From NCBI RefSeq assembly GCF_005844085.1, contig NZ_VCDI01000001.1:992001-1056000 (forward strand): a stretch of DNA of 64,000 nucleotides, in the 5' to 3' direction. The notes beneath the pieces are model-generated. The model saw nothing but the letters and a program-made list of their open reading frames with translations, did no database searches and had not been told where the DNA came from. How positions within the stretch are numbered: position 1 is the stretch's first letter; every line of letters starts with the position of its first letter. The DNA comes from Lichenicoccus roseus. Its GTDB lineage: Bacteria > Pseudomonadota > Alphaproteobacteria > Acetobacterales > Acetobacteraceae. Both the position numbers and the translations under genes were made by a program. Shown here one piece after another: positions 16,110 to 40,400 of this stretch.

Positions 16110-17957
<1,848 letters not shown>

Positions 17958-17969: not shown

Positions 17970-19913
17970 CTATACCGGGCGCGGCTGTTCGCGGGATTGC
18001 CAGGCCTGCACCAGCGCGGCGTAGCGGCTCGCCATCATGTCGACCGCCGCATCGTCGGTGATCTCGTTGGCCAGCCACTGCCGCGCCGGATCGATGAAGA
18101 TGGTCCGCCCGATCGCGAAGCCCTTGACCCAGGGCGTCGCGGCGGAAGCATGGAACGCCTCGACAAGCTGCTCGGCCGGCGCGTCCAGCCCGAGCAGCAC
18201 GATGCCGCGGCAGAGCGGGTCGCGACCTGCAATCACCTCGCCGATCGCCTGCCAGGTGGCGCCGTCGCGCTGCGGCTCCAGTTTCCACCAGTCCGGACGG
18301 ATGCCGATATCGTACAGCCGGTTCATCACCCGCGGCAGGGTGTCCGGGCCGAGCAGGCCGTGCTTGCCGGCGATGATCTCGACCAGCAGGTCGCGGCCCT
18401 GCCGGCGGCAGGCATCCTGCGCGCGCAGCAACTCCCGCTCCTGGCGCAGCCGCAGCGCCTCGTCATCGTCCGGATGATAGAAGCACAGGCACTTCACCAC
18501 CTGGTCGGTCGGCCACTCGGCGAGCTGCGCGCCCAGCGAACCGCCGTTCTCGAAATCCAGCGGGCGCGAGCCGGTGCGCTCGATCGGGCGCGCCACCCAC
18601 AAACCGGCATGGGAAGCGGCGAACAGCGCCTCGCGGCCGTAACGGCCATCGAGGAACATCCCGTAGCCGGGACGGCCTTCCGCCACCCTCGCTGCGGCGC
18701 GCACCGCGAGGAGCTTGAAGTCGGCGATGCGCGAAAACGGAGCGCCGACCGCGGTCGCCACGTCCTCGAGCTGGATGCGATGGTCGCAGGCCAGTGCCAT
18801 GATCGGCGTCGGCTGGGCGCGGCGCGTCGTCGCCCAGTGGATGTGGTTCAGCTCGGCGTCGTGCCGCAGCGCGTGGTGCACGGAGCCGTGCGCCAGGAAA
18901 TGCTGCAATTCCGGAAAGGTCGGGATCTCCGGTGAGCACAACAGGCGCGAGACCGCAAAGGCGCCGCACGCGTTGGCCCAGGCGCAGCAGGTCTCGAGCG
19001 GCTCGTGGCGCAGCCAGCCGCGCAGGAAGCCGGACATGAAGGCGTCGCCGGCACCGAGCGTGTTGTAGACCTCGACGGGAAAGCCGGGCCCCTTGATGCC
19101 GTCCTCGATGCTGTCCGGTATGGCGCCGGGGAACACCACGCAGCCCATCGGGCCGCGCTTGCAGACGATGGTGGCGGAGGGAGCGGCCACCCGCACCGCG
19201 CGGATCGCATCCAGCGTGTCCTCATGGCCACCGGCGATGTGCAGCTCTTCCTCGGTGCCGACGATCAGGTCGCACTCCGGCAGGATCTCCGCCAGGTGCG
19301 TGGTGACGGTGCCGGACCGGATGTAGCGGCTCTCGCCGGCACCGTGCCCGGCCAGACCCCAGAGGTTCGGCCGGTAGTCGATATCGAACACCACGCGGCC
19401 GCCCGCCGCGCGCACCATCCGCATGGCACGACGCTGGGCAGCGGCAGAGTGCGGCTTCGAGAAATGTGTGCCGGTGACAACCACGGACCGGGTGCGTGCC
19501 AGCAGCGCGGGGTCGATGTCGGTCTCGTCCAGCGCGGCATCGGCGCAGTCGGCACGATAGAAGATGATCGGAAAGCTGGCACTGTCGCGCACGCCCAGGA
19601 TGGCGAGAGCGGTCAGGCGCTCGGGGTCGGTATGCACACCGGTCGTGTCGACGCCCTCGCGCCGCATCTGCTCGCGGATGAAGCGGCCGAGATGCTCGTC
19701 GCCCACGCGGGTGATGATGGCCGAGCGCAGCCCGAGCCGGGCGGTGCCGATGGCGATGTTGGAGGGACAGCCGCCGACCGCCTTGCTGAAGCTCGCCATG
19801 TCCTCCAGGCGGGCCCCGATCTGCTGGCCGTAGAGGTCCACCGACGACCGGCCGATGGTGACGAGGTCGAGCATCTCCGGAGACGGGCGGCCTGGTAGTT
19901 CCCCTGAGCTCAT
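17970..19913 (-). CDS. iolC: bifunctional 5-dehydro-2-deoxygluconokinase / 5-dehydro-2-deoxyphosphogluconate aldolase
   Basis: A 647-residue fusion. Residues 1 to about 330 are a PfkB-family kinase, with the DLYG and GGCPSNIA segments and the ATP/catalytic motif NTLGAGDAFMSGFLRG near residue 286. From about 335 to the end is a DUF2090 domain (ALACDHRIQLED, GMFLDGRYG, FAIGRTIF), which in this family supplies the aldolase that splits 6-phospho-5-dehydro-2-deoxygluconate into dihydroxyacetone phosphate and malonate semialdehyde. So no separate iolJ is required. The ATG at 19913 has a strong GGGAGG 6 nt upstream. It is the first gene of the operon, with an operator cluster at 19949-19982. Confidence 0.93.
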   Translation of the reverse strand: MSSGELPGRPSPEMLDLVTIGRSSVDLYGQQIGARLEDMASFSKAVGGCPSNIAIGTARLGLRSAIITRVGDEHLGRFIREQMRREGVDTTGVHTDPERLTALAILGVRDSASFPIIFYRADCADAALDETDIDPALLARTRSVVVTGTHFSKPHSAAAQRRAMRMVRAAGGRVVFDIDYRPNLWGLAGHGAGESRYIRSGTVTTHLAEILPECDLIVGTEEELHIAGGHEDTLDAIRAVRVAAPSATIVCKRGPMGCVVFPGAIPDSIEDGIKGPGFPVEVYNTLGAGDAFMSGFLRGWLRHEPLETCCAWANACGAFAVSRLLCSPEIPTFPELQHFLAHGSVHHALRHDAELNHIHWATTRRAQPTPIMALACDHRIQLEDVATAVGAPFSRIADFKLLAVRAAARVAEGRPGYGMFLDGRYGREALFAASHAGLWVARPIERTGSRPLDFENGGSLGAQLAEWPTDQVVKCLCFYHPDDDEALRLRQERELLRAQDACRRQGRDLLVEIIAGKHGLLGPDTLPRVMNRLYDIGIRPDWWKLEPQRDGATWQAIGEVIAGRDPLCRGIVLLGLDAPAEQLVEAFHASAATPWVKGFAIGRTIFIDPARQWLANEITDDAAVDMMASRYAALVQAWQSREQPRPV

Positions 19914-19948: not shown

Positions 19949-19982
19949 TTCCATATTTTGGTCAATATGGAACGTCAGTTCC
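19949..19982. promoter_or_regulatory. IolR operator cluster upstream of iolC
   Basis: A GGAA-CGTCAG-TTCC site (19969-19982) matches the GGAA-N6-TTCC motif described for RpiR-type IolR in Sinorhizobium. Its left half is also the right arm of a perfect 9-bp inverted repeat: TTCCATATT (19949-19957), a 6-nt spacer, AATATGGAA (19964-19972). Three half-sites therefore overlap 36-69 bp before the iolC start, where a repressor would block transcription. Confidence 0.75.
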
Positions 19983-20414: not shown

Positions 20415-20445
20415 ATCGGGCCATCGCGTCCGGTTTGCAAGGGAA

Positions 20446-20460
20446 TTGTGCGTTGCACAA
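20446..20460. promoter_or_regulatory. LacI-type operator palindrome
   Basis: TTGTGCGTTGCACAA is a 6+3+6 palindrome with perfect arms, 25 bp before the chosen ATG of the adjacent LacI regulator gene. LacI-family sites are typically short palindromes like this, so autoregulation is the simplest reading. Confidence 0.55.
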
Positions 20461-20485
20461 AAATGTCATGGAGCGGCGTGCCGCC

Positions 20486-21538
20486 ATGCGTCGTCCGACC
20501 ATCACCGACCTGGCACGCGAGGCCGAGGTCTCGATCTCGACCGTCGACCGGGTCCTGAACGGCCGCCTGCCGGTCCATCCGCAGACCGCGTCGCGCGTAC
20601 TGGCCGCCGCCGACCGGATCGGCTTCTACGCAGCCGGCCTCATCCGCCAGCGCCTCGAAGCGCAGGCACCCGCACGACGGCTCGGCTTCGTGCTGCAGCA
20701 GCGCAGCGCGCCATTCTACCAGGCGCTTGGCGCCGCCCTGCGCGAGGCCGTGCTGGCGTGCCGGACGATCCGCGGCCAACCCGTCATCGAGTATCTCGAC
20801 GATCTCACCCCGGCCGCCGTGTCCGACGCGCTGCGCCGTATCGGCGGCCAGACGGACGCGCTGGCGCTGGTCGCCGCCGATCACGCCCACGTTTCGCGGG
20901 CGATCGACGAACTGCACGAACAGGCTGTGCCGGTGTTCGCCCTGCTCTCCGACCTGACCGCGCCAACGCGCGCGGGCTATGCTGGCCTGGACAGCCGCAA
21001 GGCCGGGCGCTTCGCCGGCTGGGCGATCTCCCGCCTCGCACGGGTGCCGGGACCGGTGGCGATCATGCTCGGCAGCCATCGCTATCTCGGCCACGAGCTC
21101 TGCGAACTCGGCTACCGCTCGTATTTCCGCGAGACCGGGACAGGCGGGAGCGGAAGCAGCTTCAAGGTGCTGGAAGCGCTGGTCAGCCTGGAAGAGCCCC
21201 GCCTCGCCTACGAGGCCACCGCTGACCTGCTGCGGCGCACGCCGGATCTCGTTGGCCTCTATGTGGCGGGCGGCGGGATCGAGGGTGTCATCGGCATGCT
21301 GCGCGATCGCATCCAGGGCGGCGAGACGGGACACCTCGTCACGGTCTGCAACGAGCTCACCGGGGTGACGCGCGCGGCACTCATCGACGGCATCGTGGAC
21401 GTCGTGATCGCGCATCCCCTCGAGCGCATCGCGAACGACCTGGTCGCCGCCATGATCCATTCGATCGGCCGCCCGTCGCCGGCGGCGCCGGTGCAGGTCA
21501 TGCTGCCGTTCGAGCTGTACACCCCGGAAAACCTGTAG
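20486..21538 (+). CDS. LacI-family transcriptional regulator
   Basis: About 350 residues. The N-terminal helix-turn-helix TITDLAREAEVSISTVDRVLNG is of LacI type, with the hinge at about residues 45-60, followed by a periplasmic-binding-protein-like ligand domain (LGFVLQQRSAPFYQALGAAL ... ALVAADHAHV ... GLYVAGGGIEGV). The STVDRVLNG variant is typical of LacI proteins that sense sugars or polyols. I choose the ATG at 20486, directly before the HTH; an ATG at 20468 and a TTG at 20435 are in frame, but the latter would place the operator inside the gene. Its targets probably include itself and the DUF1127 gene; a role in inositol control is possible but not shown. Confidence 0.85.
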   Translation: MRRPTITDLAREAEVSISTVDRVLNGRLPVHPQTASRVLAAADRIGFYAAGLIRQRLEAQAPARRLGFVLQQRSAPFYQALGAALREAVLACRTIRGQPVIEYLDDLTPAAVSDALRRIGGQTDALALVAADHAHVSRAIDELHEQAVPVFALLSDLTAPTRAGYAGLDSRKAGRFAGWAISRLARVPGPVAIMLGSHRYLGHELCELGYRSYFRETGTGGSGSSFKVLEALVSLEEPRLAYEATADLLRRTPDLVGLYVAGGGIEGVIGMLRDRIQGGETGHLVTVCNELTGVTRAALIDGIVDVVIAHPLERIANDLVAAMIHSIGRPSPAAPVQVMLPFELYTPENL

Positions 21539-21597: not shown

Positions 21598-22659
21598 CTA
21601 GGCCACCGCGAGCAGCCGCAGCAGCCCGATGGAGAGACCGGCCAGCACCAGCAGCGAAGCGATCACCACCGCCGCGATGCGGCCGCCGGCGCCGGCGACC
21701 GCGCGCAGGTCGGTGCTCAGTCCGAGTGCCGCCATCGACACCACGGTCAGCACGCTCGCGATGCCGGCGAGCGGTGGCAGCGCGGCATGGGGCACCCCTC
21801 CGGCGGCACGCAGGGTCGCCAGCGCCACGAAGCCGGCGATGAACCAAGGCACCAGCCGGTGCAGCCGCACCCGGCCACCGCCACCACCCGCGACCGCGGC
21901 CAGCACCAGCACGACCGGGCCAAGCATCAGCACGCGCATCAGCTTGACCAGCGTGCCGATCTGCACCGCCGCCGCACCCATCGGCGCGCTGGCGGCGAAG
22001 ACCTGCGGCACCGCATAGACGGTGAGGCCGGCCAGCGTGCCGTATTGCGTGGCGCTCAGGTGCAGCAGCGGGACCGCCAGCGGCAGGACCAGCACCACCA
22101 CCACACCCAGCACCGCGGTGAAGCCGATCGACGCCGCGACATCCCCGCCTTCGGCCCCGATCACCGGGGCGACGGCGGCGATCGCGGAGTTGCCGCAGAT
22201 CGAGTTCCCGCAGGCGATCAGCGTCGCCATGCGGCGCGGCAGGCCGAGCAGGCGCCCGATGCCGTAGCTTGCCCCGATCGCGAGGACGACCACGCCGGCG
22301 ATGCCAAGCGGCAGCCCCGCACCGGCGGCGAGGATCGCGCCGGTGTCCAGCGATGCCCCCAGCAGCATCACGGCGATCTCGAGCAGCAGCCTGGCGCTGA
22401 GGTCGATGCCGCAATGCCAGCGCGCCGAGGGGGTCCATGCCATGCGGATCGCGGCGCCGAGCAGGATCGCCAGCACCAGCGCCTCGAGCCAGGCACGGCC
22501 GAGCAGGATGGCTTCCACGCGCTGCAGCAGGACCGCGGCGAGCGCGACACCGGTGCACAGCAGCAGGCCGGGGGCGTATCGGCCCAACGCCGGCCGGAGC
22601 GGTTCGACCCGATGCTGGACGATGCTGAGCATGACGACGTGCCTCCGGGGACCGGGCAC
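21598..22659 (-). CDS. YeiH/UPF0324 family membrane protein (putative sulfate exporter)
   Basis: A 353-residue integral membrane protein with about ten helices. Family hallmarks are AILLGAAIRM, the E-I-AVMLLGASLDTGAIL segment, and ACGNSICGNSAIAAVAPVI, where the GNSxCGxSAIxA motif defines UPF0324. Members have been proposed to export sulfate or related anions, but the substrate is not firmly established. A LysR regulator lies immediately upstream on the same strand, a pairing also seen in E. coli yeiE-yeiH. A palindrome at 22687-22706 precedes the gene. Confidence 0.85.
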   Translation of the reverse strand: MPGPRRHVVMLSIVQHRVEPLRPALGRYAPGLLLCTGVALAAVLLQRVEAILLGRAWLEALVLAILLGAAIRMAWTPSARWHCGIDLSARLLLEIAVMLLGASLDTGAILAAGAGLPLGIAGVVVLAIGASYGIGRLLGLPRRMATLIACGNSICGNSAIAAVAPVIGAEGGDVAASIGFTAVLGVVVVLVLPLAVPLLHLSATQYGTLAGLTVYAVPQVFAASAPMGAAAVQIGTLVKLMRVLMLGPVVLVLAAVAGGGGGRVRLHRLVPWFIAGFVALATLRAAGGVPHAALPPLAGIASVLTVVSMAALGLSTDLRAVAGAGGRIAAVVIASLLVLAGLSIGLLRLLAVA

Positions 22660-22686
22660 GACCCTGAGCCAATCGGATTGATCTAT

Positions 22687-22706
22687 CTATCGGTATATAT
22701 CGATAG
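22687..22706. promoter_or_regulatory. LysR-type operator upstream of yeiH-like gene
   Basis: A perfect 6-bp inverted repeat, CTATCG and CGATAG, around the 8-nt AT-rich centre GTATATAT. It lies in the 69-bp gap between the LysR gene and the yeiH-like gene, 28 bp before the latter's start. The size and AT centre fit a LysR-family recognition site. Confidence 0.55.
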
Positions 22707-22728
22707 GAATGATCTACTGGGTGGATGA

Positions 22729-23610
22729 TTACCGGCAGCCAATCAGCTTCAGCAGGGCCTCCGCCGCACGCGACCGATAGCGCTCGACATGCCGAACGAC
22801 GCTGAAGTCACGTTCCGGCAGCTCGATGCCGACCCGGTGCAGCAACCCGGCTTCCAGGCTGGAGGCGGCAACCGACCCCGACAGCGCGGTGGCCCCCAAT
22901 CCCGCCTCGACCGCCGCACGCACGCTCTCGTTGGAGGGCAGTTCGAGCGCCACCCTCAGGGTGGAGGGGTCGAGGCCGAGGGCGGCGAGTGCGGACTCGA
23001 ACACCGTGCGGGTACCGGACCCCGGCTCGCGCAGCACCCAGTCGCTGCCCGGCAGGTCCGATGCACGCAGGTCGGTCCGGCCGACCCAGGGATGCTGGGT
23101 GCCGACGACGATGACCAGCCGGTCGCGGGCCACCGGCCGGCTGCTGAGCATCGGGTCGTCGATGCGGCCCTCGATGAAGCCGAGTTCCGCCTCGCCGCGA
23201 TGCACCGCGGCCGCCACCTGCCCGGTGTTGCCGACAGCGAGCCTGATCTCGATGCCGGGATAGGCGTGCCGGTAGGCGACCAGGTGACGCGGCAGCCAAT
23301 AACCGGCGATGGTCTGACTCGCCTGCACGTTCAGCGTGCCGCGGCTGAGATCGGCAAGTTCGGCCAGCACGCGTTCCGCGGCATCCGCGCGCGCCAGAAC
23401 CGCGCGCGCCTCGATGAGGAACAGCGACCCCGCCTCGGTCAGGGAGATGCCCCGGCCGACCCGGTCGAACAGCCGGGTGGCGTGGCGCGCTTCCAGTCCG
23501 GCGATGGCGGCGCTGACCGCGGACTGCGCCAGATGCAGCGCCTCGGCCGCCCGCGTCACATGCTGCCGCTCGGCGACCGCGACGAACACCCGCAGCTGCT
23601 CGAGCGTCAT
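22729..23610 (-). CDS. LysR-family regulator (YeiE-like)
   Basis: A 293-residue LysR-type protein. The N-terminal winged HTH runs MTLEQLRVFVAVAERQHVTRAAEALHLAQSAVSAAI at residues 1-36, and a periplasmic-binding-type effector domain follows (about 90-290; for example VGNTGQVAAAVHRGEAELGFIEG). That effector domain resembles the CysB/CbbR/YeiE group. It probably controls the yeiH-like gene directly downstream. Its start is 4 bp from the end of the RpiR-type gene, so these three minus-strand genes may be cotranscribed. Confidence 0.85.
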   Translation of the reverse strand: MTLEQLRVFVAVAERQHVTRAAEALHLAQSAVSAAIAGLEARHATRLFDRVGRGISLTEAGSLFLIEARAVLARADAAERVLAELADLSRGTLNVQASQTIAGYWLPRHLVAYRHAYPGIEIRLAVGNTGQVAAAVHRGEAELGFIEGRIDDPMLSSRPVARDRLVIVVGTQHPWVGRTDLRASDLPGSDWVLREPGSGTRTVFESALAALGLDPSTLRVALELPSNESVRAAVEAGLGATALSGSVAASSLEAGLLHRVGIELPERDFSVVRHVERYRSRAAEALLKLIGCR

Positions 23611-23614: not shown

Positions 23615-24529
23615 TCATGGCACGGATGCGGCCGACCGGTGCTCCATCAGCGCCACCGACAGCGCGGTCGCCAGCGCCAGGGTGGCGGACAATGACCGGA
23701 AGCCGCCGAGATCGGTCTCGGCGACTTCCATCCAGACCCTGGCCAGCTGTGCCAGCGGCGAGAATGGCGAGTCTGTGATGGCGACCACCGGGATGCCGGC
23801 GGCGGCGGCCTGCTGCGCCAGTTCCAGGGTCTCGCTGGCGTAGGGGGTGAAGCTCACCGCCAGCACGGCGTCGTCGGCACCGAGCAGTTCCACCTGGCGG
23901 CGCGCCATCCCGCCCGCGTGGTCGGCGAGTTCGCAGCGGGCGCCGAGCGTCTGCAGCGCGTAGTTCAGGTACACCACCACCGGATACACCCGCCGGACGC
24001 CGAGCAGGCAGATGGTGCGGGCGCCGGCCAACAGCTCGACCGCCTGCGACAGCGCCACATGGTCGATGGTCTGCTCCAGATGGTCGATCGAGACACGCGC
24101 CGCATGCAGGAAGCCGTGCAGCAGGGCACCGGCGTCGGGTGCGGCCGGCGCCTCCCCTGGACCCGCACCGTCCTGGATCACGGCCAGCGCCTGCAGCCGT
24201 TCGCGATAATCCGGCCAGCGTTGCCTGGCGTGGGCGCGGAACACCGCCTGGAGGTCCGAGAAACCGGCATAGCCGAGGGTCTGCGCGAAGCGGACCAGTG
24301 TCGAGGGCTGTACGCCGGCCTGTTGCGCGAGATCGGCGACGCGACCGAAGGCGATCTCCTGCGGGTGCTCGACGGCGAAATCGGCCACCTGGATCAGCCG
24401 TTTCGGCAGCATCTCGCGCCGGGCCACGATCAGCGCACGCAGGCTCTTGAAGTCGCGCGGGATGGACCCGCCAGCTTCGGCACCGCCCGGATCGACCTCC
24501 GCATCCTGGCCGGCCGCATCTTGGGACAT
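23615..24529 (-). CDS. iolR: RpiR-family regulator, probable inositol repressor
   Basis: About 304 residues. An N-terminal RpiR HTH domain (FGRVADLAQQAGVQPSTLVRFAQTLGYAGFSDLQAVFRA) is followed by a SIS sugar-phosphate-binding domain (ARTICLLGVRRVYPVVVYLNYAL ... DDAVLAVSFTPYASETLELAQQAAAAGIPVVAITD). In Sinorhizobium and relatives the iol repressor is of this RpiR type and binds GGAA-N6-TTCC. Such a site (24553-24566) lies between this gene and the divergent iolG. I choose the ATG at 24529; the longer in-frame ATG at 24568 would start inside the operator. The effector is likely a phosphorylated inositol intermediate, by analogy. Confidence 0.8.
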   Translation of the reverse strand: MSQDAAGQDAEVDPGGAEAGGSIPRDFKSLRALIVARREMLPKRLIQVADFAVEHPQEIAFGRVADLAQQAGVQPSTLVRFAQTLGYAGFSDLQAVFRAHARQRWPDYRERLQALAVIQDGAGPGEAPAAPDAGALLHGFLHAARVSIDHLEQTIDHVALSQAVELLAGARTICLLGVRRVYPVVVYLNYALQTLGARCELADHAGGMARRQVELLGADDAVLAVSFTPYASETLELAQQAAAAGIPVVAITDSPFSPLAQLARVWMEVAETDLGGFRSLSATLALATALSVALMEHRSAASVP

Positions 24530-24552
24530 CGTTGACAACACTCCAACGCGGT

Positions 24553-24566
24553 GGAATATAAATTCC
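24553..24566. promoter_or_regulatory. IolR operator between iolR and iolG
   Basis: GGAATATAAATTCC fits GGAA-N6-TTCC exactly and has 5-bp symmetric arms. It lies 24 bp upstream of the chosen iolR start and about 100 bp before iolG, so it could repress both genes. Confidence 0.75.
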
Positions 24567-24663
24567 ATAAAGCAAAGATCCGGTTAAATCCATTCTGCCG
24601 CTCCCGCTCCGGGGCGCGTCAAGGCAATGACCGGAGGAAACGTCAGCTTCGGGACAACATCGC

Positions 24664-25659
24664 ATGGTCCGTTTTGCCGTCCTCGGATGTGGCCGCATCG
24701 GGCGCATGCACGCCGCCAACCTGGCGCGCCATCCGGATGCCTCCCTCGTCTCGGTGTTCGATATAGCCCAGGCCGCCGCCGCCGAGGTTGCAGGCCAGTT
24801 GGGCGTGCGGCAGGCCGCCTCGGTCGAGGAGATCCTGGGCGACGCCGGCGTCGATGCGGTGCTGATCGCGACCTCCACCGACACCCATGTCGAGCTGATC
24901 ATTGCCGCCGCCCGCGCCGGCAAGGCGGTGCTATGCGAGAAGCCGATCGACCTCGACATGGCGCGCGTCATCCGATGCTGGAACGAGATCGGCAGCCTCG
25001 ACCCGACGGTGATGATCGGCTTCAACCGCCGGTTCGATCCCTCCTTCGCCGCCCTGCGCCGTCGCGTGCAGGAGGGCGAGATCGGCCGCGTCGAGCAGGT
25101 TGTCATCACCTCGCGCGATCCGGCGCCGCCACCGCTCGCCTACATCAAGGTCTCCGGCGGCATGTTCCGCGACATGACGATCCATGATTTCGACCTGGCG
25201 CGCCATCTCGTCGGTGAGATCGTCGAGGTCTCGGCACACGGTGCGTCGCTGATCGATCCGGGAATCGGCGAGGCCGGCGACATCGATGCGGCCATGGTGA
25301 CGATGCGGGCGGCTTCGGGCGCGCTGGTGCACATTAACAACAGCCGCCGCTGCAGCTACGGATACGACCAGCGGCTCGAGGTGTTCGGGGAGACCGGCAT
25401 GCTGGTGGCGGGCAACCGTCGCGAGACCAGCGTCGAGGCGTGGAGCGCGAAAGGCACGCAAGCCGCCGACCCGGTGCTGCACTTCTTCATCCAGCGATAC
25501 GCCGACGCCTACGCTGCCGAGATCGCGCATTTCGTCGCCTGCGTGCAGGACCGGACCAGGCCATCGCCGAGCTTCAACGACGGCATGCAGGCGTTGCGCC
25601 TGGCAGACGCCGCCAACGAGAGCCTGCGCACCGGCCGCAGCATCCGGATCACCGGCTAG
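24664..25659 (+). CDS. iolG: inositol 2-dehydrogenase (Gfo/Idh/MocA family)
   Basis: A 331-residue oxidoreductase that starts the pathway by oxidising myo-inositol to 2-keto-myo-inositol with NAD+. The Rossmann motif GCGRIGRMHAANL is at residues 8-20. The family motif CEKPIDL carries the catalytic Lys near residue 97, and MFRDMTIHDFDLARHL contains the Asp and His of the active site. Its divergent position from an RpiR regulator over a GGAA-N6-TTCC operator supports the iol assignment. MocA of rhizopine catabolism and scyllo-inositol dehydrogenases have the same fold, so a preference for another inositol isomer or derivative is possible, especially with mocDEF nearby. Confidence 0.88.
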   Translation: MVRFAVLGCGRIGRMHAANLARHPDASLVSVFDIAQAAAAEVAGQLGVRQAASVEEILGDAGVDAVLIATSTDTHVELIIAAARAGKAVLCEKPIDLDMARVIRCWNEIGSLDPTVMIGFNRRFDPSFAALRRRVQEGEIGRVEQVVITSRDPAPPPLAYIKVSGGMFRDMTIHDFDLARHLVGEIVEVSAHGASLIDPGIGEAGDIDAAMVTMRAASGALVHINNSRRCSYGYDQRLEVFGETGMLVAGNRRETSVEAWSAKGTQAADPVLHFFIQRYADAYAAEIAHFVACVQDRTRPSPSFNDGMQALRLADAANESLRTGRSIRITG

Positions 25660-26126: not shown

Positions 26127-26585
26127 ATGCTGATGCGCAATTTGCTGACTGTCGGCGCGGTCGTCGCCTCCATGGCGGGTACAGCCTGGGCGCAGGGCTG
26201 GACCGGGCATGCGGGCGGTTGGCACGGCCCGTTCGCCGGCGCGCAATTCACCGCCGCGCAGCAAACCCAGGTGCATGCCATCATGCAGGCGGCACACCAG
26301 CAGACTGCCAGCGTGCGCGCACAGATCCAGGGCCTGCAGCAGCAGATCGACACCCTGCTGGTGTCCTCCGGCACCGTCACCGAGGCGCAACTCACCCCTC
26401 TGGTACAGCAGCAGGAGACGCTCCGCCAGCAGCTGGACGCCTCGCGGATCTCGACCGAGATCGCCATACGCAACCTGCTGACCGGCGCGCAGCTTGCCTC
26501 GGCGGCGAGTACTCACGCCCAGTTGGCCGCACTGCACCAGCAGGAGCATGCGGTGCTGCAGGCGGCGGCACCCGCCACGCCCTGA
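26127..26585 (+). CDS. periplasmic Spy/CpxP-like small protein
   Basis: A 152-residue protein with a signal peptide (LMRNLLTVGAVVASMAGTAWAQ). The mature part is almost entirely helical and rich in Gln, Ala and His, with heptad-like spacing (QTQVHAIMQAAHQQTASVRAQIQGLQQQIDTLL). This resembles the all-helical Spy/CpxP/heavy-metal-resistance sensor group, though the LTxxQ motif is not clear (TAAQQTQV is closest). The ATG at 26127 has GAGGGGA 10 nt upstream. Probably an envelope chaperone or stress protein; the match is structural impression, not a firm family call. Confidence 0.6.
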   Translation: MLMRNLLTVGAVVASMAGTAWAQGWTGHAGGWHGPFAGAQFTAAQQTQVHAIMQAAHQQTASVRAQIQGLQQQIDTLLVSSGTVTEAQLTPLVQQQETLRQQLDASRISTEIAIRNLLTGAQLASAASTHAQLAALHQQEHAVLQAAAPATP

Positions 26586-26729: not shown

Positions 26730-27956
26730 TCAAGCTGCGCGCAGCATCGCCTTGAGCGCTTGCCCGCTGGACGCCAGCGCCAGCGGGTCGGGATGCGCGC
26801 GCGCCGCGATCAGCATCTCGGCCAGCCGGACCTCGCGCGCGACCTTGCCGATCGGCCCGAGGCCTGTCGCGGATAGCAGTCGCCCCCCGGTATCCAGCTG
26901 GAACCAGAGCGCCGCTCCGTCGCCGAGATCGCGGGTCACCAGTCGCACGGCACCGTCGGCGAGGCCCGCGGTCTGCAGGCACAGCTCGTACTGGTCCGAC
27001 CAGAACCACGGCACAGCTTCGTAGGCCTCACCCGCACCAAGCATGTTGCGCGCGACCACGTTGCCCTGGTCCTGCGCGTTGCGCCACGCCTCCAGCCGTA
27101 TCCGCCGGTCACCGTAGAGGGGATGCGGGAACGAGCAGCAATCCCCGGCGGCGAAGATGTCGGCATCGTCGGTGCGCAGGGTGGCGTCGACGGCGACGCC
27201 GTTCTCGATCACGAGGCCCGCCGACGCGGCAAGCTCCGTGTTCGGTAATGCGCCGATGCCGGCGACGATGCCGTCCGCGTCCAGGCAACTGCCGTCCTCA
27301 AGACGGATACGATGGCAATCCCCCTCGCTCGAGATCGACGCGATGCGGGCGCCGGTCACGATGCGCACGCCGGCCTCGCGGTGCCGTGCGGCGATGAGTG
27401 CCGCCGCCGGTGCCGGGACGCCGCGCGAGAGCAGGCGAGGCGCCGCCTCCAGCAGGGTCACCGCGACGCCGCGCGAGCGTGCGCCGGCGGCGATCTCCAG
27501 CCCGATGAAGCCGCCACCGATCAGGATCAGGTGGCCACCCTGTCCGAGCCGCGCACGCAGTCGGAGCGCATCGGCGAAGTTGCGCAGGTAGAGCACGTTG
27601 TCCGGTCCGGCGCCCTGGATCGGCAGCCGGCGTGGCGATGCCCCCGTCGCCAGCAGCAGCTTTGCGTAGTCGAGGACCGTACCGTCCGACAGCCGGACCC
27701 GACGCGCCGCGCGGTCGATTCGTTCCACCCGGCGGCCGGCGAGCAAGGTGATGTCGAGATCGCGCAGGCGTTGCGGGCCCAGGATGGTCGCAGGTTTCGG
27801 GTCGGTCGCATCCAGGATGACCGCCTTGGAGAGGGGCGGTCGCTCGTAGGGCGCATGCGCCTCGTCACCGACCAGGGTGATCGGACCGGACCAGCCGGTC
27901 TCGCGCAGGGCGGCGGCGGCTCGCGCTCCCGTCTCCCCTGCCCCCGCGATCAGCAT
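26730..27956 (-). CDS. FAD/NAD(P)H-dependent ferredoxin reductase (MocF-like)
   Basis: A 408-residue flavoprotein of the rubredoxin/ferredoxin reductase family (RhFRed, AndAa, MocF). The FAD motif IAGAGETGARAAAAL is at residues 3-17, with YERPPLSK at about 40. The NADH motif LILIGGGFIGLEIAAGARSRG lies near residue 145, followed by ADIFAAGDCC. A C-terminal reductase domain (VPWFWSDQYELCLQTAGL) closes it. It would pass electrons from NAD(P)H to the Rieske ferredoxin encoded just upstream; the genes overlap by one base. It is the third gene of a mocD-mocE-mocF-type operon. Confidence 0.82.
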   Translation of the reverse strand: MLIAGAGETGARAAAALRETGWSGPITLVGDEAHAPYERPPLSKAVILDATDPKPATILGPQRLRDLDITLLAGRRVERIDRAARRVRLSDGTVLDYAKLLLATGASPRRLPIQGAGPDNVLYLRNFADALRLRARLGQGGHLILIGGGFIGLEIAAGARSRGVAVTLLEAAPRLLSRGVPAPAAALIAARHREAGVRIVTGARIASISSEGDCHRIRLEDGSCLDADGIVAGIGALPNTELAASAGLVIENGVAVDATLRTDDADIFAAGDCCSFPHPLYGDRRIRLEAWRNAQDQGNVVARNMLGAGEAYEAVPWFWSDQYELCLQTAGLADGAVRLVTRDLGDGAALWFQLDTGGRLLSATGLGPIGKVAREVRLAEMLIAARAHPDPLALASSGQALKAMLRAA

Positions 27957-28279
27957 CAGGCAATCCCGATCAATACTTTCTCGCCCTCGACCTTGACCGG
28001 ATAGGTGGCGAGATCGACGCAGATCGGCGCGCCCTTGCCGGCACCGGTACGGTAGTCGAAGCGGCCGTTATGCTTCGGGCACTCGATGATATGCCCCATC
28101 ACCAGCCCATCGGCGAGATGCACGCGCTCATGGGTGCACAGCCCGTCGGTTGCGAAGAACTCGTCGTCAGGCGAACGGTAGATCGCAAACGTGCGGCCGT
28201 CATGGTCGAAGCGGAATACGTCCTCCTCCTCGATCTCGTCACGCGTGCAGGCGACCATCCAGGTCCTGGTTTCGGTCAT
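27956..28279 (-). CDS. mocE: MocE-family Rieske [2Fe-2S] ferredoxin
   Basis: A 107-residue Rieske ferredoxin. The cluster ligands are in CTHERVHLADG and CPKHNGRF, giving C-x-H ... C-x2-H. The surrounding sequence (TDGLCTHE, GHIIECPKHNGRFDYRTG) is that of the MocE family first described in rhizopine catabolism of Sinorhizobium. It should shuttle single electrons from the reductase to the desaturase-like oxygenase. The ATG at 28279 is chosen because the fold starts there; the frame is open to 28369 without similarity. It lies 37 bp after the oxygenase gene. Confidence 0.85.
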   Translation of the reverse strand: MTETRTWMVACTRDEIEEEDVFRFDHDGRTFAIYRSPDDEFFATDGLCTHERVHLADGLVMGHIIECPKHNGRFDYRTGAGKGAPICVDLATYPVKVEGEKVLIGIA

Positions 28280-28316
28280 CGTCTTGGTCCCCCAGTCGAA
28301 TTGGACAACGCCTTGA

Positions 28317-29384
28317 TCAGGCAGAGACGGCTTCGGGCAACGCTCCGGCGGGCAACGTACGCACGACATGCCATTCCGGATCGCGCGCCTGGCGCAGCAG
28401 CCCGGGGATGATTTCGCGATAGGCGGCGATCAGGCTCGGATACGGCGCCGGACAGTCGGCCTTGATCGCCTCGTGCAGCGCCGGCAGGGCGTGATACGGC
28501 ACCATCGGAAACATGTGGTGTTCGACGTGATAGTTCATGTTCCAGTAAAGGAACCGGAACACCGGGTTCATCATCACGGTGCGGCTGTTCAGCCTGTGGT
28601 CGAGCGTGTCCTCGGCAAGGGCCGCGTGCTGCGTGGTTCCGAACACCACCATCAGCCAGGCGCCGTAGAAGCTGGGCAGGCCAAGCAGCATCGCGGGAAT
28701 GATGCTGCGCAGCGCGATGCATGATGCGATCATCATTACGAAGATCCCGACATGGATGCGCGCGATCCGGAACACCTTGTGCTGCTCCATTTTCGGAACG
28801 AAGCTCCGCTCCTCGTCGGTAAGCCGCCCGATGGCGTGCAGCGCGATGCCATACAGCGCGGCCGGCCCGCTCTTCAGCTGGAACATGTTGAGCAGGATGC
28901 CGAGCAGATCCGGCGGCCGCTTGACGGCGATCTCGGGATCGCGTCCGACGATGATGGTGTCGGTATGATGGCGCGCATGGCTCCAGCGCCAGACCGTCGG
29001 CTCGCGCAGGATCATCACGCAGGCGATGTTGTAGACGACATCGTTCATCCAGCGCGTCCTGAACGCGGTGCCGTGCCCGCACTCATGCCACCGGCTATCG
29101 GATGCCGATCCGTACAAGACGCCGTAGCAGAGGAACGCAACCGCGGCCGGCCACCGGCCCCAGAAATACACACCCAGGCTGCCGCTGAGTGAGAGGCATG
29201 CGAACCAGAGCGCGGTATCACGGATCGCCGGCCCGTCGCGTCGCTGCATCAACGCCTTCATCTGCTTGCGTGGCACCAGGCAGCTGTACCATTGCGCCGA
29301 CGCCAGCCCGCTCTCGACGGCGCGGGCACCGTCGATGCCGACGAGGCTGTAGTCGCGTGTGCGGACCGGGAGTGTTTCCGACAA
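28317..29384 (-). CDS. mocD: MocD-like diiron oxygenase of the fatty-acid-desaturase family
   Basis: A 355-residue membrane-bound diiron enzyme. The three histidine boxes are visible: HECGHGT (HxxxH), HARHHT (HxxHH) and NYHVEHHMFP (HxxHH), plus an extra QH in GTTQHAAL, with hydrophobic segments between. Cotranscription with a MocE ferredoxin and a reductase matches the mocDEF set, whose products remove the O-methyl group of 3-O-methyl-scyllo-inosamine. Here the neighbouring iol operon suggests O-demethylation of a methylated inositol such as pinitol or a rhizopine, but that is inference. A lipid desaturase or hydroxylase is the main alternative. A long inverted repeat lies about 100 bp upstream. 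Confidence 0.75.
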   Translation of the reverse strand: MSETLPVRTRDYSLVGIDGARAVESGLASAQWYSCLVPRKQMKALMQRRDGPAIRDTALWFACLSLSGSLGVYFWGRWPAAVAFLCYGVLYGSASDSRWHECGHGTAFRTRWMNDVVYNIACVMILREPTVWRWSHARHHTDTIIVGRDPEIAVKRPPDLLGILLNMFQLKSGPAALYGIALHAIGRLTDEERSFVPKMEQHKVFRIARIHVGIFVMMIASCIALRSIIPAMLLGLPSFYGAWLMVVFGTTQHAALAEDTLDHRLNSRTVMMNPVFRFLYWNMNYHVEHHMFPMVPYHALPALHEAIKADCPAPYPSLIAAYREIIPGLLRQARDPEWHVVRTLPAGALPEAVSA

Positions 29385-29486: not shown

Positions 29487-29548
29487 ATGACAGGATTCTT
29501 TCATCATCTTCCAGCCAACCCCCTGGAAGCCATGAAAGATCCTGTCAT
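29487..29548. promoter_or_regulatory. long nested inverted repeat upstream of mocD
   Basis: The outer arms ATGACAGGATTCTTTCAT (29487-29504) and ATGAAAGATCCTGTCAT (29532-29548) pair over 17 bp with one bulged base. Inside, CTTCCAG and CTGGAAG form a second perfect 7-bp pair. No U-tract follows on either strand, so it looks more like a double operator or an RNA structure than a simple terminator, although it also lies just after the end of the upstream short-chain dehydrogenase gene. Confidence 0.55.
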
Positions 29549-29564: not shown

Positions 29565-30410
29565 TCAGCCCGGGAAGTCTGCCGACAGGCTGGCGTCGCG
29601 ATACTGTTCGATCTGCTCCAGCCGCTGCTTCAGCTTCGCCGTGACGCCGTCATAGGCTACCTTGCCAAGCACCAGGTGACGCGGCGGATCGGCGCTTTCG
29701 ACCACCCGGATCATCGCCTCGCCGGCCCGCACCGGATCGCCGGCCTGCTTGCCACTGATGTCCGACGTGCTCTTCATCCGGGCGCCGGCGGTGCCGGCAT
29801 AATCCTCGATCCTGTTCGGGGTCTGCTTGAGGGAGCGCCCGGCCCAGTCGGTGCGGAACGGCCCCGGCTCCACGCAGGTCACCTTGATCCCGAGCGGGGC
29901 GGTCTCCGCCGCCAGCGCATCCGAGAAGCCTTCCACCGCATGCTTGCTGGCCGCGTAGTAGCCGGAGCCGGGAAAGCCGATGAAGCCGGCCATCGAGGTG
30001 ATGTTCAGGATGTGGCCGCGATGCCGGCTGCGCATGCCGGGCAATACTGCCCGGGTCAGCGCGAACAGGCCGAACACGTTGGCCTCGAACTGGGCGCGGA
30101 CCTCGTCGTCCTCGCCCTCCTCGATCGCCGCCTGGTAGCCATAGCCGGCATTGTTCACCAGCACGTCGATGGCGCCGAAACGCTCCTCCGCTGCCTTCAC
30201 GGCCTGCCTGATCTGGCCGGCGTCGGTGACGTCGAGGCTCAGCGCCAGGACCCGGTCCTCGGCTCCCTTGCCGAGATCGGCGACACGGCCGGCATCGCGC
30301 GCGGTGACAACGGCGCGCCAGCCGCGATCCAGCACAAGCTGCGCCAGGTCGCGGCCGAAGCCGGTCGAGCAGCCGGTGATGAACCAGGTCGGGATGGTCT
30401 GTTCTGACAT
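29565..30410 (-). CDS. short-chain dehydrogenase/reductase
   Basis: About 281 residues. Classical SDR with the cofactor motif TGCSTGFGRD (TGxxxGxG) near residue 11, NNAGYG at about 87, catalytic Ser in NITSMAGFIGF and YYAASK for Tyr and Lys. The C-terminus is of the type annotated as retinol dehydrogenase-like or general oxidoreductase; the substrate is unknown. The ATG at 30410 is chosen, since the fold begins seven residues later; an ATG at 30437 is also in frame. It is on the same strand as mocD but separated by 180 bp with a large inverted repeat, so probably its own transcript. Confidence 0.8.
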   Translation of the reverse strand: MSEQTIPTWFITGCSTGFGRDLAQLVLDRGWRAVVTARDAGRVADLGKGAEDRVLALSLDVTDAGQIRQAVKAAEERFGAIDVLVNNAGYGYQAAIEEGEDDEVRAQFEANVFGLFALTRAVLPGMRSRHRGHILNITSMAGFIGFPGSGYYAASKHAVEGFSDALAAETAPLGIKVTCVEPGPFRTDWAGRSLKQTPNRIEDYAGTAGARMKSTSDISGKQAGDPVRAGEAMIRVVESADPPRHLVLGKVAYDGVTAKLKQRLEQIEQYRDASLSADFPG

Positions 30411-30480
30411 GTGCCTATTCCTTTGCAGGGTCGGCACCTAACGCCGTGGCACGCTCCGGGATGTCGCCCCTCGCTGCGAT

Positions 30481-32471: not shown

Positions 32472-33326
32472 ATGCACAGGATCGTCCGCACGGCAGGGGC
32501 TGCCGTCGCCATGCTCGTGGTCGCGTTCCAGGCACGGGCGGCCGATGTCAGCGTGCTCTATGCCGGCTCGCTGGTGAACCTGATGGAGCACGGCATCGGA
32601 AGCGCCTTCGACGGCACTGGCCGCGACCGCTTCGTCGGCTATGGCGGCGGCTCGAATGCACTCGCCAACCAGATCAAGGGCCACCTGCGCCGCGCCGACG
32701 TGTTCATCAGCGCCACTCCCAGGGTCAACGACACGCTGATGGGGGCGGCCAACGGCGACCGTGTCGCCTGGTACGTGACCTTCGCGCAGTCGCCGCTGGT
32801 GATCGCCTACAACCCGTCCACCAGGTTCGCCGCAGAGCTGAAATCGAAGCCCTGGTACGAGGTGCTGCGCGAGCCCGGCATCAGGATCGGCCGCACCGAC
32901 CCGACGCAGGATCCGAAGGGTCGCCTGACCCTGCAACTGCTGCAGCGCGCGGAACAGGTCTACCACCAGCCCGGCCTGGCGCGGTCGGTGCTGGGCGCTC
33001 CCGGCAATCCCGCCCAGGTGCGGCCGGAGGAGAGCCTGACCGGCCGCATGCAGTCCGGGGAGATCGATGTCGGCTTCTTCTATTCGACCGAGGCCACCGA
33101 CCTGAAGCTGCCGTCGGTCGCGCCGGCCCCAGAGGTGGCGACCGGCGCACGCTACACCGTGACCATCCTGCGCGACGCCGCCGACCCGGCTGGCGCCGCT
33201 CGCTACGTGAGCTTCCTGCTTGGCGCACAGGGGCAGGCCATCATGCACCGGCACGGGCTGGACACGGTGACGCCGGTGCTGACCGGCAACCGGGCAGCGG
33301 TGCCGGCCGAACTCCATCTCCAGTAG
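32472..33326 (+). CDS. molybdate/tungstate-type ABC transporter binding protein (WtpA/ModA-like)
   Basis: A 284-residue periplasmic protein with a signal peptide (VRTAGAAVAMLVVAFQARA). The fold begins DVSVLYAGSLVNLMEHGIGSAF, and the Y-A-G-S-L start is characteristic of the WtpA/ModA class. Further landmarks are YGGGSNALANQIKG, DVFISATPRVND, PLVIAYNP, RIGRTDPTQDPKGRLTLQLLQ and VGFFYSTEA. These line the oxyanion site in relatives. Whether it prefers molybdate, tungstate or another oxyanion cannot be decided from sequence. It lies in operon with the fused permease-ATPase. Confidence 0.82.
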   Translation: MHRIVRTAGAAVAMLVVAFQARAADVSVLYAGSLVNLMEHGIGSAFDGTGRDRFVGYGGGSNALANQIKGHLRRADVFISATPRVNDTLMGAANGDRVAWYVTFAQSPLVIAYNPSTRFAAELKSKPWYEVLREPGIRIGRTDPTQDPKGRLTLQLLQRAEQVYHQPGLARSVLGAPGNPAQVRPEESLTGRMQSGEIDVGFFYSTEATDLKLPSVAPAPEVATGARYTVTILRDAADPAGAARYVSFLLGAQGQAIMHRHGLDTVTPVLTGNRAAVPAELHLQ

Positions 33327-33342: not shown

Positions 33343-35175
33343 ATGCCGCGCGTGCTGCCGGCGCTGGCCGCGCTGCTGTCGCTGTACCTGGTCGCGCCGT
33401 TCCTGGCCGCGGCGCTCCAGGCGAACGCCGCCGACTGGCGCGGCGCCGATCTCGCGGCCCTGTCCCGGGCCGGACTGGTCTCGATCGCCAGCGCCACCCT
33501 CGCCAGCCTGCTGGTCGCACTCGGCGGCATCCCGCTCGGCTACCTGCTCGTGCGGGTTCCAGGACGTGGCATGGCGCTGCTCGGCTTCGTGGTGCAACTG
33601 CCGCTTGCCCTGCCGCCGCTCGCCAGCGGCATCCTGCTGCTGTTCCTGCTCGGCTATGCGAGCCCGCTCGGACGCCTCACCGGCGGCATGCTGACCGACA
33701 GCTTCGCCGGCATCGTGCTCGCGGAGGCGTTCGTATCGGCGCCGTTCCTGATCGTTGCCGCCCGCTCCTCGTTCGCCGCGGTGGATCCCGCCCTGGAGGA
33801 CGTGGCGGCGACGCTCGGGCACCGGCCGTGGGCGGTGTTCCGGCATGTCAGCCTGGCGCTCTCGCGGCCGGGCATCCAGGCCGGGCTGCTGCTGACCTGG
33901 CTGCGCGCCTTCGGCGAGTTCGGCGCCACCGTGATGGTCGCGTACCACCCGTATTCGCTGCCGGTCTACACCTACGTCGCGTTCGGCAGCGAAGGCCTGC
34001 CGGCGATGCTGCCGATCCTGCTGCCGGCCGTGCTGATCGCCATGCTGGTGATGGCGCTCAGCCTTCGACGCCGCGCGCCGGTTGCCGCGCGGCAGGCGGC
34101 GGGCGCGGCACCCGTTGCGATGCGTGCCCCCTCACCTGCGGTTGCCGCCGCACCGGAGCAGCCGCTCGACTTCACCTTCCTCTGGCACCGGAACGGCTTC
34201 GAGCTCGATGTCGCGTGGCAGACCCGGGCAAGCCGCCTGTGCATCCTGGGCGCCTCGGGCTCGGGCAAGTCGGCGACGCTTCGCCTGCTCGCCGGCCTGG
34301 ACAATCCCGACCGGGGAACCGTCACGCTCGGCGGCGAGGATCTCGGCGCCCGACCCGCCCATGCGCGCGGCATCGCCTACGTGCCGCAGACCTTCGGGCT
34401 GCTGCCGCATCTCGCGGTCGCGCAACAGGTCCGCTTCGGCGTCGGCTGCGATCCGGAGCGCGCCCGTGTCTGGACCGACCGGCTCGGCCTGTCGGACCTG
34501 CTCCATCGTCTTCCGGTCGAGCTGTCGGTCGGCCAGCAGCAGCGCGTCGCCCTCGCCCGTGCGCTGTCCCGCCCCGGACGCCTGCTGCTGCTGGACGAAC
34601 CGTTCTCGGCGCTCGACGCGACCCTGCGCGGCGAGCTTCGCGACGAACTGGCCGCGTTTCAGCAGGATATCGAAATGACCAGCATCCTGGTCACCCACGA
34701 CCCGGAGGAGGCGCTGCTGCTCGCCGACGAGTTGCTGCTGCTGGATGGTGGCCGCGTGCTGCAGTCCGGACCGGCCGAGGCGATCTTCCGCCGTCCCGCC
34801 AACGAGGTGGCGGCGAGGCTGCTCGGCGCGCGCATGGCGGCGGCGGGGCAGGCGGTAGCGCCGCATTCGATCGACATCGGCGGCGGCATCTTGCTGGAGG
34901 TCGCAGGCGAGGCGTTGCCGATCGGGCCGATACGCTGGGCGGTGCATCCTGGTCGCGTGGCGCTTGCCGAGGCCGGTGGCCACCCGGCGACCGTGATCGA
35001 GGCGGGCCCGGTGCGCGGCGGCCGGCGGCGGCTGCTGGTGCGCCTCGGCGACAGCGTGTTCCCCTTCGACGCCAACCCGGGCCTATCACACTCACAGTCG
35101 GTCCGGCTTTCGATCGATCCCGCATCCCTGCAGGTGTGGCCGCGTCAGATGCTTGATTTGCCGACACGCCACTAA
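33343..35175 (+). CDS. fused ABC permease-ATPase for molybdate/tungstate
   Basis: A 610-residue fusion of the two parts usually made as separate ModB/WtpB and ModC/WtpC proteins. Residues 1 to about 245 form a permease with six helices, including the coupling motif around LRAFGEFGATVMVAYHP. After an Ala-rich linker (about 245-275) comes the ATPase, with Walker A GASGSGKSATLRLL (about 303), Q-loop YVPQTFGLLP, signature LSVGQQQRVALARAL (Val replaces the usual Gly), Walker B LLLLDEPFSALD and the switch His in LVTHDPEEALLL. A C-terminal TOBE-like oxyanion domain (VHPGRVAL) follows. It starts 16 bp after the binding-protein gene. Confidence 0.85.
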   Translation: MPRVLPALAALLSLYLVAPFLAAALQANAADWRGADLAALSRAGLVSIASATLASLLVALGGIPLGYLLVRVPGRGMALLGFVVQLPLALPPLASGILLLFLLGYASPLGRLTGGMLTDSFAGIVLAEAFVSAPFLIVAARSSFAAVDPALEDVAATLGHRPWAVFRHVSLALSRPGIQAGLLLTWLRAFGEFGATVMVAYHPYSLPVYTYVAFGSEGLPAMLPILLPAVLIAMLVMALSLRRRAPVAARQAAGAAPVAMRAPSPAVAAAPEQPLDFTFLWHRNGFELDVAWQTRASRLCILGASGSGKSATLRLLAGLDNPDRGTVTLGGEDLGARPAHARGIAYVPQTFGLLPHLAVAQQVRFGVGCDPERARVWTDRLGLSDLLHRLPVELSVGQQQRVALARALSRPGRLLLLDEPFSALDATLRGELRDELAAFQQDIEMTSILVTHDPEEALLLADELLLLDGGRVLQSGPAEAIFRRPANEVAARLLGARMAAAGQAVAPHSIDIGGGILLEVAGEALPIGPIRWAVHPGRVALAEAGGHPATVIEAGPVRGGRRRLLVRLGDSVFPFDANPGLSHSQSVRLSIDPASLQVWPRQMLDLPTRH

Positions 35176-38127: not shown

Positions 38128-39210
38128 GTGCCCCGGCCGCGTGGCCAGGAGGCAGCCTGGGATGGAACGGTGCAGAAGACCTGCAGGAACGGTGCCCCGG
38201 GAACGTGGCCCTCGAACGGCTGCGCGACGGCAGGCGCAAGGGCCGAACCCGAGCTCGAGATCGTTGCCGCCGCCGACGGCACACCGTTCAAGATGTGGTC
38301 GCACGGCTATCCGTTCCGCACGGTACGCTGGCACTTCCATCCCGAGTACGAGATCCACCTGATCACCGCGACCACGGGCCGCATGTTCGTAGGCGATCAC
38401 GTCGGCGCCTTCGTGCCCGGCAACCTGGTCATGACCGGCCCCAACCTGCCGCACAACTGGCTCAGCGACGTCGAGCCGGGCACCACCATTCCGGAGCGCT
38501 GCCTGGTGCTGCAGTTCACCGAGGCTTTCATCGCCTGCTGCCGTGCGGCGTTTCCGGAATTCGACCTCACCTGCCTGGTCGAGGACTGCCAGCGCGGCGT
38601 GCAGTTCTCGGCCGGCACCGGCCGCGCGGCAGAGCCGCTGCTGCGCGCCATGCTCGACGGCTCGGCATTGTCCCGGCCGGCACTGTTCTTCCAGTTGCTG
38701 GAGCTGCTTGTTGGCGCCACCGACCGCCGGATGCTGGCCAGCATCGGCTATCGTGCCAAGCCTGCGATCTACATGACGCGGCCGATCAACCATGTACTCG
38801 AACATATCGCCCGCAACCTCGACTGCACCCTGCGCGAGGGGGAGATGGCCGAACTCAGCGGATATAGTCCGAGCGCGTTCTCGCGCGCCTTCCACCGGCA
38901 GATCGGCCTGACCTTCACGGCCTACGTCAACGGCATGCGTATCAATCGCGCCTGCCGTTTGCTGACCACCTCGGATCGAACGGTCACTGAAATCTGCTTC
39001 GAGACCGGCTTCAACAACGTCTCGAACTTCAATCGGCAATTCCTGTCGCGCACCGCGATGACGCCGCGCGCCTACCGGCGCCACCATCGCGCGAACGACC
39101 GTTATTCGATGAAACGGACCGACCACTCCGACATCGATGCCATCGCATCCGCGGGCGTAAGCGGCCCCGATGCGCAATCCGGCGACACGCCAAGAAACGT
39201 CCAGACCTGA
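38128..39210 (+). CDS. AraC-family regulator of the pentitol operon
   Basis: Up to 360 residues from a GTG start. An N-terminal cupin-like sensor (WHFHPEYEIHLITATTGRMFVGDHVGAFVPGNLVMTGPNLPHNW, about residues 65-110) is joined to a C-terminal pair of HTHs (EMAELSGYSPSAFSRAFHRQIGLTFTAYVNGMRINRACRLL, then VTEICFETGFNNVSNFNRQF). The sensor is of the type that binds sugars or polyols. It is 16 bp before the binding-protein gene, so regulator and transporter are cotranscribed. The first 40 residues are low complexity and the real start could be later. Confidence 0.82.
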   Translation: MPRPRGQEAAWDGTVQKTCRNGAPGTWPSNGCATAGARAEPELEIVAAADGTPFKMWSHGYPFRTVRWHFHPEYEIHLITATTGRMFVGDHVGAFVPGNLVMTGPNLPHNWLSDVEPGTTIPERCLVLQFTEAFIACCRAAFPEFDLTCLVEDCQRGVQFSAGTGRAAEPLLRAMLDGSALSRPALFFQLLELLVGATDRRMLASIGYRAKPAIYMTRPINHVLEHIARNLDCTLREGEMAELSGYSPSAFSRAFHRQIGLTFTAYVNGMRINRACRLLTTSDRTVTEICFETGFNNVSNFNRQFLSRTAMTPRAYRRHHRANDRYSMKRTDHSDIDAIASAGVSGPDAQSGDTPRNVQT

Positions 39211-39226
39211 ACGAGGAAGAGCTTCA

Positions 39227-40312: not shown

Positions 40313-40338
40313 TCGTCATCCCCGACGCCTGAGACCGG

Positions 40339-40368: not shown

Positions 40369-40400
40369 GCCCCTTTCGAAAACACCGGAGTGCCTCCGCG

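Follow-up and report, generated by a model that had tools for sequence, protein, structure and literature searches.

A compact minus-strand operon encoding MocD, MocE and MocF lies in the 64-kb window of DNA analysed here, positions 992001-1056000 of contig NZ_VCDI01000001.1 in the 4.79-Mb genome of Lichenicoccus roseus (Acetobacteraceae). The gene mocD (28317-29384) encodes a membrane diiron-type oxygenase of the FA_desaturase family, which scores 137.6 bits against PF00487 (cut-off 29.7) and carries three histidine boxes, HECGH at residue 100, HARHH at 136 and HVEHH at 286. The product of mocE (27956-28279) is a Rieske-type [2Fe-2S] ferredoxin with the ligand motifs CTH and CPKH that passes the curated MocE model TIGR02377 with 167.8 bits (cut-off 136.15); its start is best placed at 28279, the listed open reading frame (ORF) beginning at 28369 within mocD. 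A dedicated reductase within the operon is encoded by mocF (26730-27956), an FAD-dependent ferredoxin reductase with Pyr_redox_2 and Reductase_C domains that is 53-58% identical to four other MocFs and 48% identical to a fifth. A gap of 37 bp separates mocD from mocE, and mocE and mocF overlap by one base. The whole genome holds no second MocE above the cut-off, and none was found in 14 control genomes. The mocDEF gene set named by the initial annotation is thus confirmed by the MocE score, by the placement of MocD in the MocD clade described below and by the MocF-like reductase.

The operon lies beside a complete set of inositol genes, as the initial annotation had described, with 1.07 kb between the end of mocF and the end of iolG (24664-25659, plus strand). 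The latter encodes myo-inositol 2-dehydrogenase (TIGR04380, 425 bits against a cut-off of 355) and its product shares 52-53% identity with the eight closest IolGs from MocD loci. On the minus strand follow a gene for an IolR-like regulator of the RpiR family (23615-24568; 46-49% identity with its four closest RpiR counterparts at MocD/iolG loci) and, all above their cut-offs, an iolC-iolJ fusion of kinase and aldolase (17970-19913; 714 against 600 bits), iolD (16110-17957; 937 against 715), iolE (15215-16099; 389 against 290), iolB (14418-15215; 309 against 205) and iolA of the methylmalonate-semialdehyde dehydrogenase family (12894-14387; 699 against 448.5). GGAA-N6-TTCC sites occur at the iolR/iolG junction (24553-24566) and upstream of iolC (19969-19982), two sites where 0.34 are expected and a number reached in 2 of 100 shuffles; we take this to be the IolR motif as known from Sinorhizobium.

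The window protein is, to judge from its sequence, a true MocD. Its identity to six reference MocDs from plasmid loci is 53-65%, with 59% for the MocD of the mocR-bearing locus L009, whereas the three other desaturases of the genome give only 15-37 bits against it. Scores of the MocD profile over the fetched loci are bimodal, at least 400 or at most 140. A quick-method tree of 114 rows sets 106 MocDs, the window protein among them, apart from eight other desaturases of the host's family at 100% support; those eight include no characterised lipid or carotenoid enzyme. Grouping of MocD with other desaturases, the outcome that would have told against the initial annotation, was therefore not observed. 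Curated lipid and carotenoid desaturase models give at most 42 bits, far under their cut-offs; together with the weak similarity to the other desaturases of the genome and the split in the tree, these scores led us to reject a lipid or carotenoid desaturase identity. Since an AlphaFold2 model (mean predicted local distance difference test score 85.8) had two matches in the PDB below an E value of 0.001, both to chains of the FtsHi motor complex with a template modelling score of about 0.54, and searching the PDB by sequence yielded no meaningful match, the structure does not inform the substrate.

Single-chain fusions of a MocD-type desaturase, a Rieske domain and an FNR-type NAD-binding domain are found in Verrucomicrobiota and Acidobacteriota (L070, L079, L082, L085, L090 and L094). 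The domains were shown for L094 (9971-12250), and the other five are assigned from their 63-72% identity to it, their size and the family tally. As fusions of all three proteins exist, MocD, MocE and MocF are likely to act together.

The neighbourhoods of MocD genes elsewhere were taken from six plasmid loci, the best 80 of 579 loci of named genomes, the window, and the regions around 18 other MocE places and 40 desaturase places in genomes of the host's family. Removal of repeats (L114, L120, L127, L128 and L155) left 106 MocD genes, the counts over which are not independent, Hyphomicrobiales supplying most rows. Within a radius of 10.5 kb, a LacI gene was found at 83 of them, a TIM barrel at 58, a sugar-type ATP-binding cassette (ABC) binding protein at 42, a panB-like gene at 39, a Gfo/Idh/MocA gene at 27, iolG at 23, purU at 13, iolC at 10 and mocR at one. 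Genes specific to the iol pathway lie near 28 of the 106, in Alpha- and Betaproteobacteria and in one metagenome-assembled genome labelled Actinomycetota. In plasmids of Peteryoungia desertarenae and Rhizobium rosettiformans, one strand bears the row mocD-mocE-mocF-panB-iolG and the opposite strand LacI-TIM barrel-ABC transporter-purU; the R. rosettiformans plasmid has folD as well. The linkage of mocDEF to iol genes seen in the window is therefore a repeated one. Within the host's family, a cyclitol or sugar marker or a LacI gene lies near 22 of 25 MocD genes and near 2 of 20 other-desaturase loci from the same genomes (p=1.2e-7); for enzyme markers alone the counts are 17 of 25 and 2 of 20.

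At the level of whole genomes, the co-occurrence with iol genes that the initial annotation had proposed to check was found. Among 299 genomes of the host's family, 18 have MocE and 105 have iolD, the latter being present in 17 of the 18 MocE-positive genomes and in 88 of the 281 others (Fisher p=9.6e-8); counted by genus, iolD occurs in 10/10 MocE-positive and 38/92 other genera (p=3e-4). In the sole MocE-positive genome without an iolD match, G147, iolE and an iolA-type gene adjoin mocD (L156). MocE is an imperfect marker of the system, because no MocD-clade gene was seen in the MocE-positive genome G150; a MocD gene lies in the fetched stretch at 13 of 19 MocE places. At least two iolD matches, some of the second ones partial, occur in nine of the 299 genomes (G027, G034, G053, G084, G113, G129, G205, G231 and G255), all of them MocE-positive, and the second IolD may serve a different inositol isomer.

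The presence of one-carbon genes near mocD points to the release and disposal of a one-carbon unit. By BLAST, a panB-like gene was found at 39, purU at 13 and folD at 6 of 104 MocD loci, and each of them at 0 of 20 control loci; every purU locus also has a panB-like gene, and every folD locus also has purU. The arrangement of the two plasmids, with mocDEF-panB-iolG opposite LacI-ABC-purU, is as expected if the methyl group departs as formaldehyde, which could be carried off by the products of the panB-like gene, purU and folD. Against a PanB model with a cut-off of 272 bits, three of the PanB-like proteins reach 123-132, while PurU exceeds its cut-off. Such divergent PanB-like proteins tied to mocDEF, purU and folD include L186:3339-4133, L009:12765-13607 and their relatives, and are possible formaldehyde-to-folate enzymes. 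No panB-like gene or purU was detected in the window by profile search. Since a panB-like gene lies near one and purU near none of the 25 MocD genes of the host's family, these genes are not a constant feature of the LacI-mocDEF kind. The genome does encode a glutathione-dependent formaldehyde dehydrogenase (585 against 544 bits).

A LacI-family gene with a Peripla_BP_4 domain (20435-21538, plus strand) adjoins the iolC operon, and its product belongs to a subfamily that elsewhere stands divergent from mocD. Among 72 mocD-divergent LacI proteins, the best 14 share 45-52% identity with it. In a tree whose rows were all picked by a mocD-linked profile and thus include no unrelated LacI, it falls with a support of 100/100 in a group of 65 rows that holds 58 of 71 mocD-divergent LacIs. 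A plasmid search with this protein returned 797 records; of the best 15 listed, seven were examined, of which six adjoin mocD and one, from Sphaerotilus, lacks mocD within 7 kb while having iolG, RpiR and TIM barrels. This kinship makes the LacI protein the probable regulator of mocDEF.

Counting of palindromes over the LacI/mocD intergenic regions revealed nothing shared, and an operator motif emerged only from a model fitted on 59 such regions, the window excluded. The motif is the 17-bp palindrome ATGATAGAATCTATCAT, with a score of at least 15 in 43 of the 59. The top match in the window is a candidate operator, O1 (ATGACAGGATCTTTCAT, 29532-29548, minus strand), between the stop of a short-chain dehydrogenase/reductase (SDR) gene and mocD; a second candidate, O2 (29487-29504, plus strand), nearly repeats O1 in inverted orientation but is one base longer, and 27 bp lie between the two. 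The O1 score was attained in 15 of 20,000 simulated stretches of local composition, the chance of the top match of the window falling in the 181-bp SDR-mocD gap is 0.003, and the genome has three sites with at most three mismatches, O1 included, where a reversed-pattern control has one. Together, O1 and O2 form a highly stable hairpin (29487-29548; -36 kcal/mol, z -4.4) that is single-copy in the genome and may also end the SDR transcript. Its arms are near-copies of one operator-like sequence. What is new here is a LacI regulator of the mocD-linked group in combination with a putative operator, the best match of the window, directly upstream of mocD.

We consider it probable, by about two chances to one, that mocDEF encodes an oxidative O-demethylase that acts on methylated inositols under LacI control and feeds IolG. 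The candidate substrates are methylated inositols of plants, such as pinitol, ononitol, sequoyitol or similar compounds. Electrons would pass from NAD(P)H through MocF and MocE to the membrane diiron enzyme MocD, which would hydroxylate the O-methyl carbon, and the resulting hemiacetal would break into formaldehyde and free inositol. The inositol would then be degraded by IolG and the other iol enzymes, formaldehyde would be removed via the glutathione-dependent dehydrogenase, and the LacI repressor would control the operon at one or both of the candidate sites immediately before mocD. This scheme is modelled on the one published for 3-O-methyl-scyllo-inosamine (3-O-MSI). The interpretation offered by the initial annotation is thus well supported as a hypothesis, and of its two kinds of substrate the methyl-inositols are the better guess, while rhizopines are disfavoured for reasons given below.

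Several observations weigh against this reading. Genes specific to the iol pathway lie near only the 28 of 106 MocD genes noted above, and near 3 of 25 in the host's family with the window counted; because the profiles used to detect neighbours took their seeds from these loci and from the window, matches there are favoured. In the window itself, mocDEF and iolG are convergent and do not form a single operon, and the mocD-linked type of transporter was not found in its 64 kb. Turning to the one-carbon genes, the genome has no purU over the cut-off and no panB-like gene (best relative 34% identical), and a profile scan put one panB match among the controls. As for the operator, the site of the ATGATAGAATCTATCAT type upstream of mocD, best in the window as it is, has mismatches at 3 of 17 positions, O2 alone is a weak match (score 2.9), and whole-window Markov simulations attain the O1 score in 4 of 60 runs. 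The motif is missing from 16 of the 59 LacI/mocD regions and present in just two of nine from the host's family (L129 and L157); L113, which carries the mocD-divergent LacI nearest to that of the window, has a half-site only.

The strongest competitor, though an unlikely one, is that MocDEF acts on some other O-methylated carbohydrate, such as a methyl sugar or uronate, or hydroxylates a cyclitol without demethylation, the iol genes serving a different substrate. At the majority of MocD loci the sugar-catabolism genes are generic (LacI, TIM-barrel, Gfo/Idh or ABC) and not iol-specific, so that other methylated sugars may indeed be substrates. A Pfam tally of ORFs around 13 outlying MocD loci, covering 95 of 101 ORFs (six partial or overlapping ones being left out), revealed no dominant neighbour family apart from the MocD fusions, and its two Sugar_tr, three MFS_1 and two oligogalacturonate-lyase family members, at loci unspecified, would suit such a role. 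However, the MocD of the window adjoins a full iol pathway, mocDEF-panB-iolG rows occur, the link to iolD holds at the genome level, and the panB-like, purU and folD genes point to one-carbon release.

Catabolism of the rhizopine 3-O-MSI, as in Rhizobium leguminosarum and Sinorhizobium meliloti L5-30, is far less probable. The same three genes are present, the window MocD shares 59% identity with that of the mocR-bearing L009, and the mocD promoter of S. meliloti L5-30, assayed in Azorhizobium, is described as rhizopine-inducible (PMC10107442). Against this, the genome encodes five MocR relatives at 25-30% identity (best E value 7e-19) and none above 30%, and mocBA does not lie beside mocDEF, whose neighbours are the SDR gene, a small ORF and iolG (this concerns the locus, with no genome-wide search). 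Moreover, the single mocR found near the 106 MocD genes belongs to L009, where we read mocR and mocBA-like genes from the annotation, and L009 is nested among Rhizobium LacI-type systems in the MocD tree (95% support in the Shimodaira-Hasegawa-like approximate likelihood ratio test). From this nesting, and as far as one mocR locus can tell, rhizopine use looks derived. Finally, that a lipid, carotenoid or other desaturase or hydroxylase lies beside the iol genes by chance is the least probable explanation: the family is FA_desaturase, the operon converges on iolG and the SDR gene upstream is unrelated, but the fully supported split from eight family desaturases, the sugar-type neighbours (22/25 against 2/20), the mocD-type LacI gene with its operator match and the low scores of curated lipid and carotenoid models all speak against it.

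For rhizopine catabolism by mocDEF in R. leguminosarum bv. viciae and S. meliloti L5-30, PMC10107442 cites Bahar et al. (1998), and MocD has been called an oxygenase that converts 3-O-MSI to scyllo-inosamine (PMC2593844). The window shares with that system the proteins and their order (MocD 59%, MocE 64% and MocF 55% identical to those of L009) and the tie to inositol degradation. It differs in the lack of a mocR relative above 30% and of adjacent mocBA, in what would be LacI in place of MocR control, in having iolG, iolR and iolC to iolA in the same 17 kb, in its non-rhizobial host and in the absence of a panB-like or purU neighbour. Also related are the rhizobial LacI-mocDEF clusters described with the fixV relatives (PMC3538637); S. 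meliloti and R. rosettiformans are among the carriers of LacI-mocDEF. Like those clusters, the window has mocDEF, a LacI of the same subfamily and a match to the motif of their operators; here, in contrast, the LacI gene lies 6.8 kb from mocD, by the iolC operon, and mocD has no TIM-barrel epimerase as a neighbour. The epimerase neighbouring the rhizobial clusters was suggested to serve an inositol derivative (PMC3538637). The initial annotation, which knew of no such system described outside rhizobia, needs correction in that mocDEF is already in print for Pseudomonas syringae (PMC5132102). There, too, mocDEF occurs without mocCABR and with a sugar-isomerase neighbour, xylA2; in the portions of that paper drawn on here, however, the authors leave the function unclear (opine-like or aromatic compounds) and report no link to iol genes. 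MocE (59-80 bits) and MocF (327-350 bits) also resemble, under the cut-offs, the HcaCD and AndAa-AndAb chains of aromatic dioxygenases, but the terminal oxygenase of the window is of the membrane diiron type and not a Rieske dioxygenase.

In Rhizobium mesoamericanum, mocDEF expression rises 1.5-2.1-fold with Mimosa exudate, which its authors read as rhizopine use, and pinitol is the most concentrated listed component of the root exudate of Mimosa pudica in the same source (PMC5789663). Pinitol is also among the listed polyols of clover exudate (PMC8386446). A rhizopine biosensor, on which ononitol and pinitol were also tried, was activated by scyllo-inosamine and one enantiomer of 3-O-MSI (PMC6668481), a pattern that fits a separate regulator for methyl-inositols. 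In searches of open-licence literature, we saw no paper that assigns mocDEF to pinitol or ononitol or names bacterial genes for pinitol demethylation.

For methyl-inositol use, the window locus and its relatives provide candidates for the enzyme, its regulator and operator, and the route of the one-carbon unit, and they suggest that many genes annotated as rhizopine genes or fatty-acid desaturases may serve the consumption of methylated inositols of plants. The use of pinitol and ononitol by bacteria thereby becomes directly testable through the mocDEF locus. We would give even chances to the wider proposal that MocDEF originated as a general enzyme by which bacteria O-demethylate the methyl-inositols of plants (pinitol, ononitol and related compounds), under LacI control and coupled to IolG, with a tetrahydrofolate one-carbon branch of divergent PanB-like protein, FolD and PurU in many rhizobia, and that rhizopine catabolism is a late recruitment. 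If this were true, the PanB-like protein would be a new kind of formaldehyde-to-folate transferase.

Among the other genes of the window, the SDR gene upstream of mocD (29565-30437) was rejected as a part of the system, its best relatives at the fetched loci being 29-34% identical over partial length, with controls included. A small ORF between iolG and mocF (26127-26585, plus strand) has a signal-peptide-like start and by eye encodes a helical periplasmic protein resembling CpxP. Between the LacI gene and iolR (21598-23610, minus strand) lie a gene for a YeiH-type exporter, under the model cut-off, and a LysR gene identified by eye. A plus-strand stretch (38128-42460) encodes an AraC-type regulator and a sugar-type ABC transporter (binding protein, ATPase and permease) unlike the mocD-linked kind; the transporter (39170-42460) was discarded as the importer because its binding protein is only 28% like those of mocD-linked transporters. 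Also on the plus strand, what appears by eye to be an ABC permease-ATPase fusion of 611 amino acids (33343-35175) is preceded by a binding-protein gene (32472-33326).

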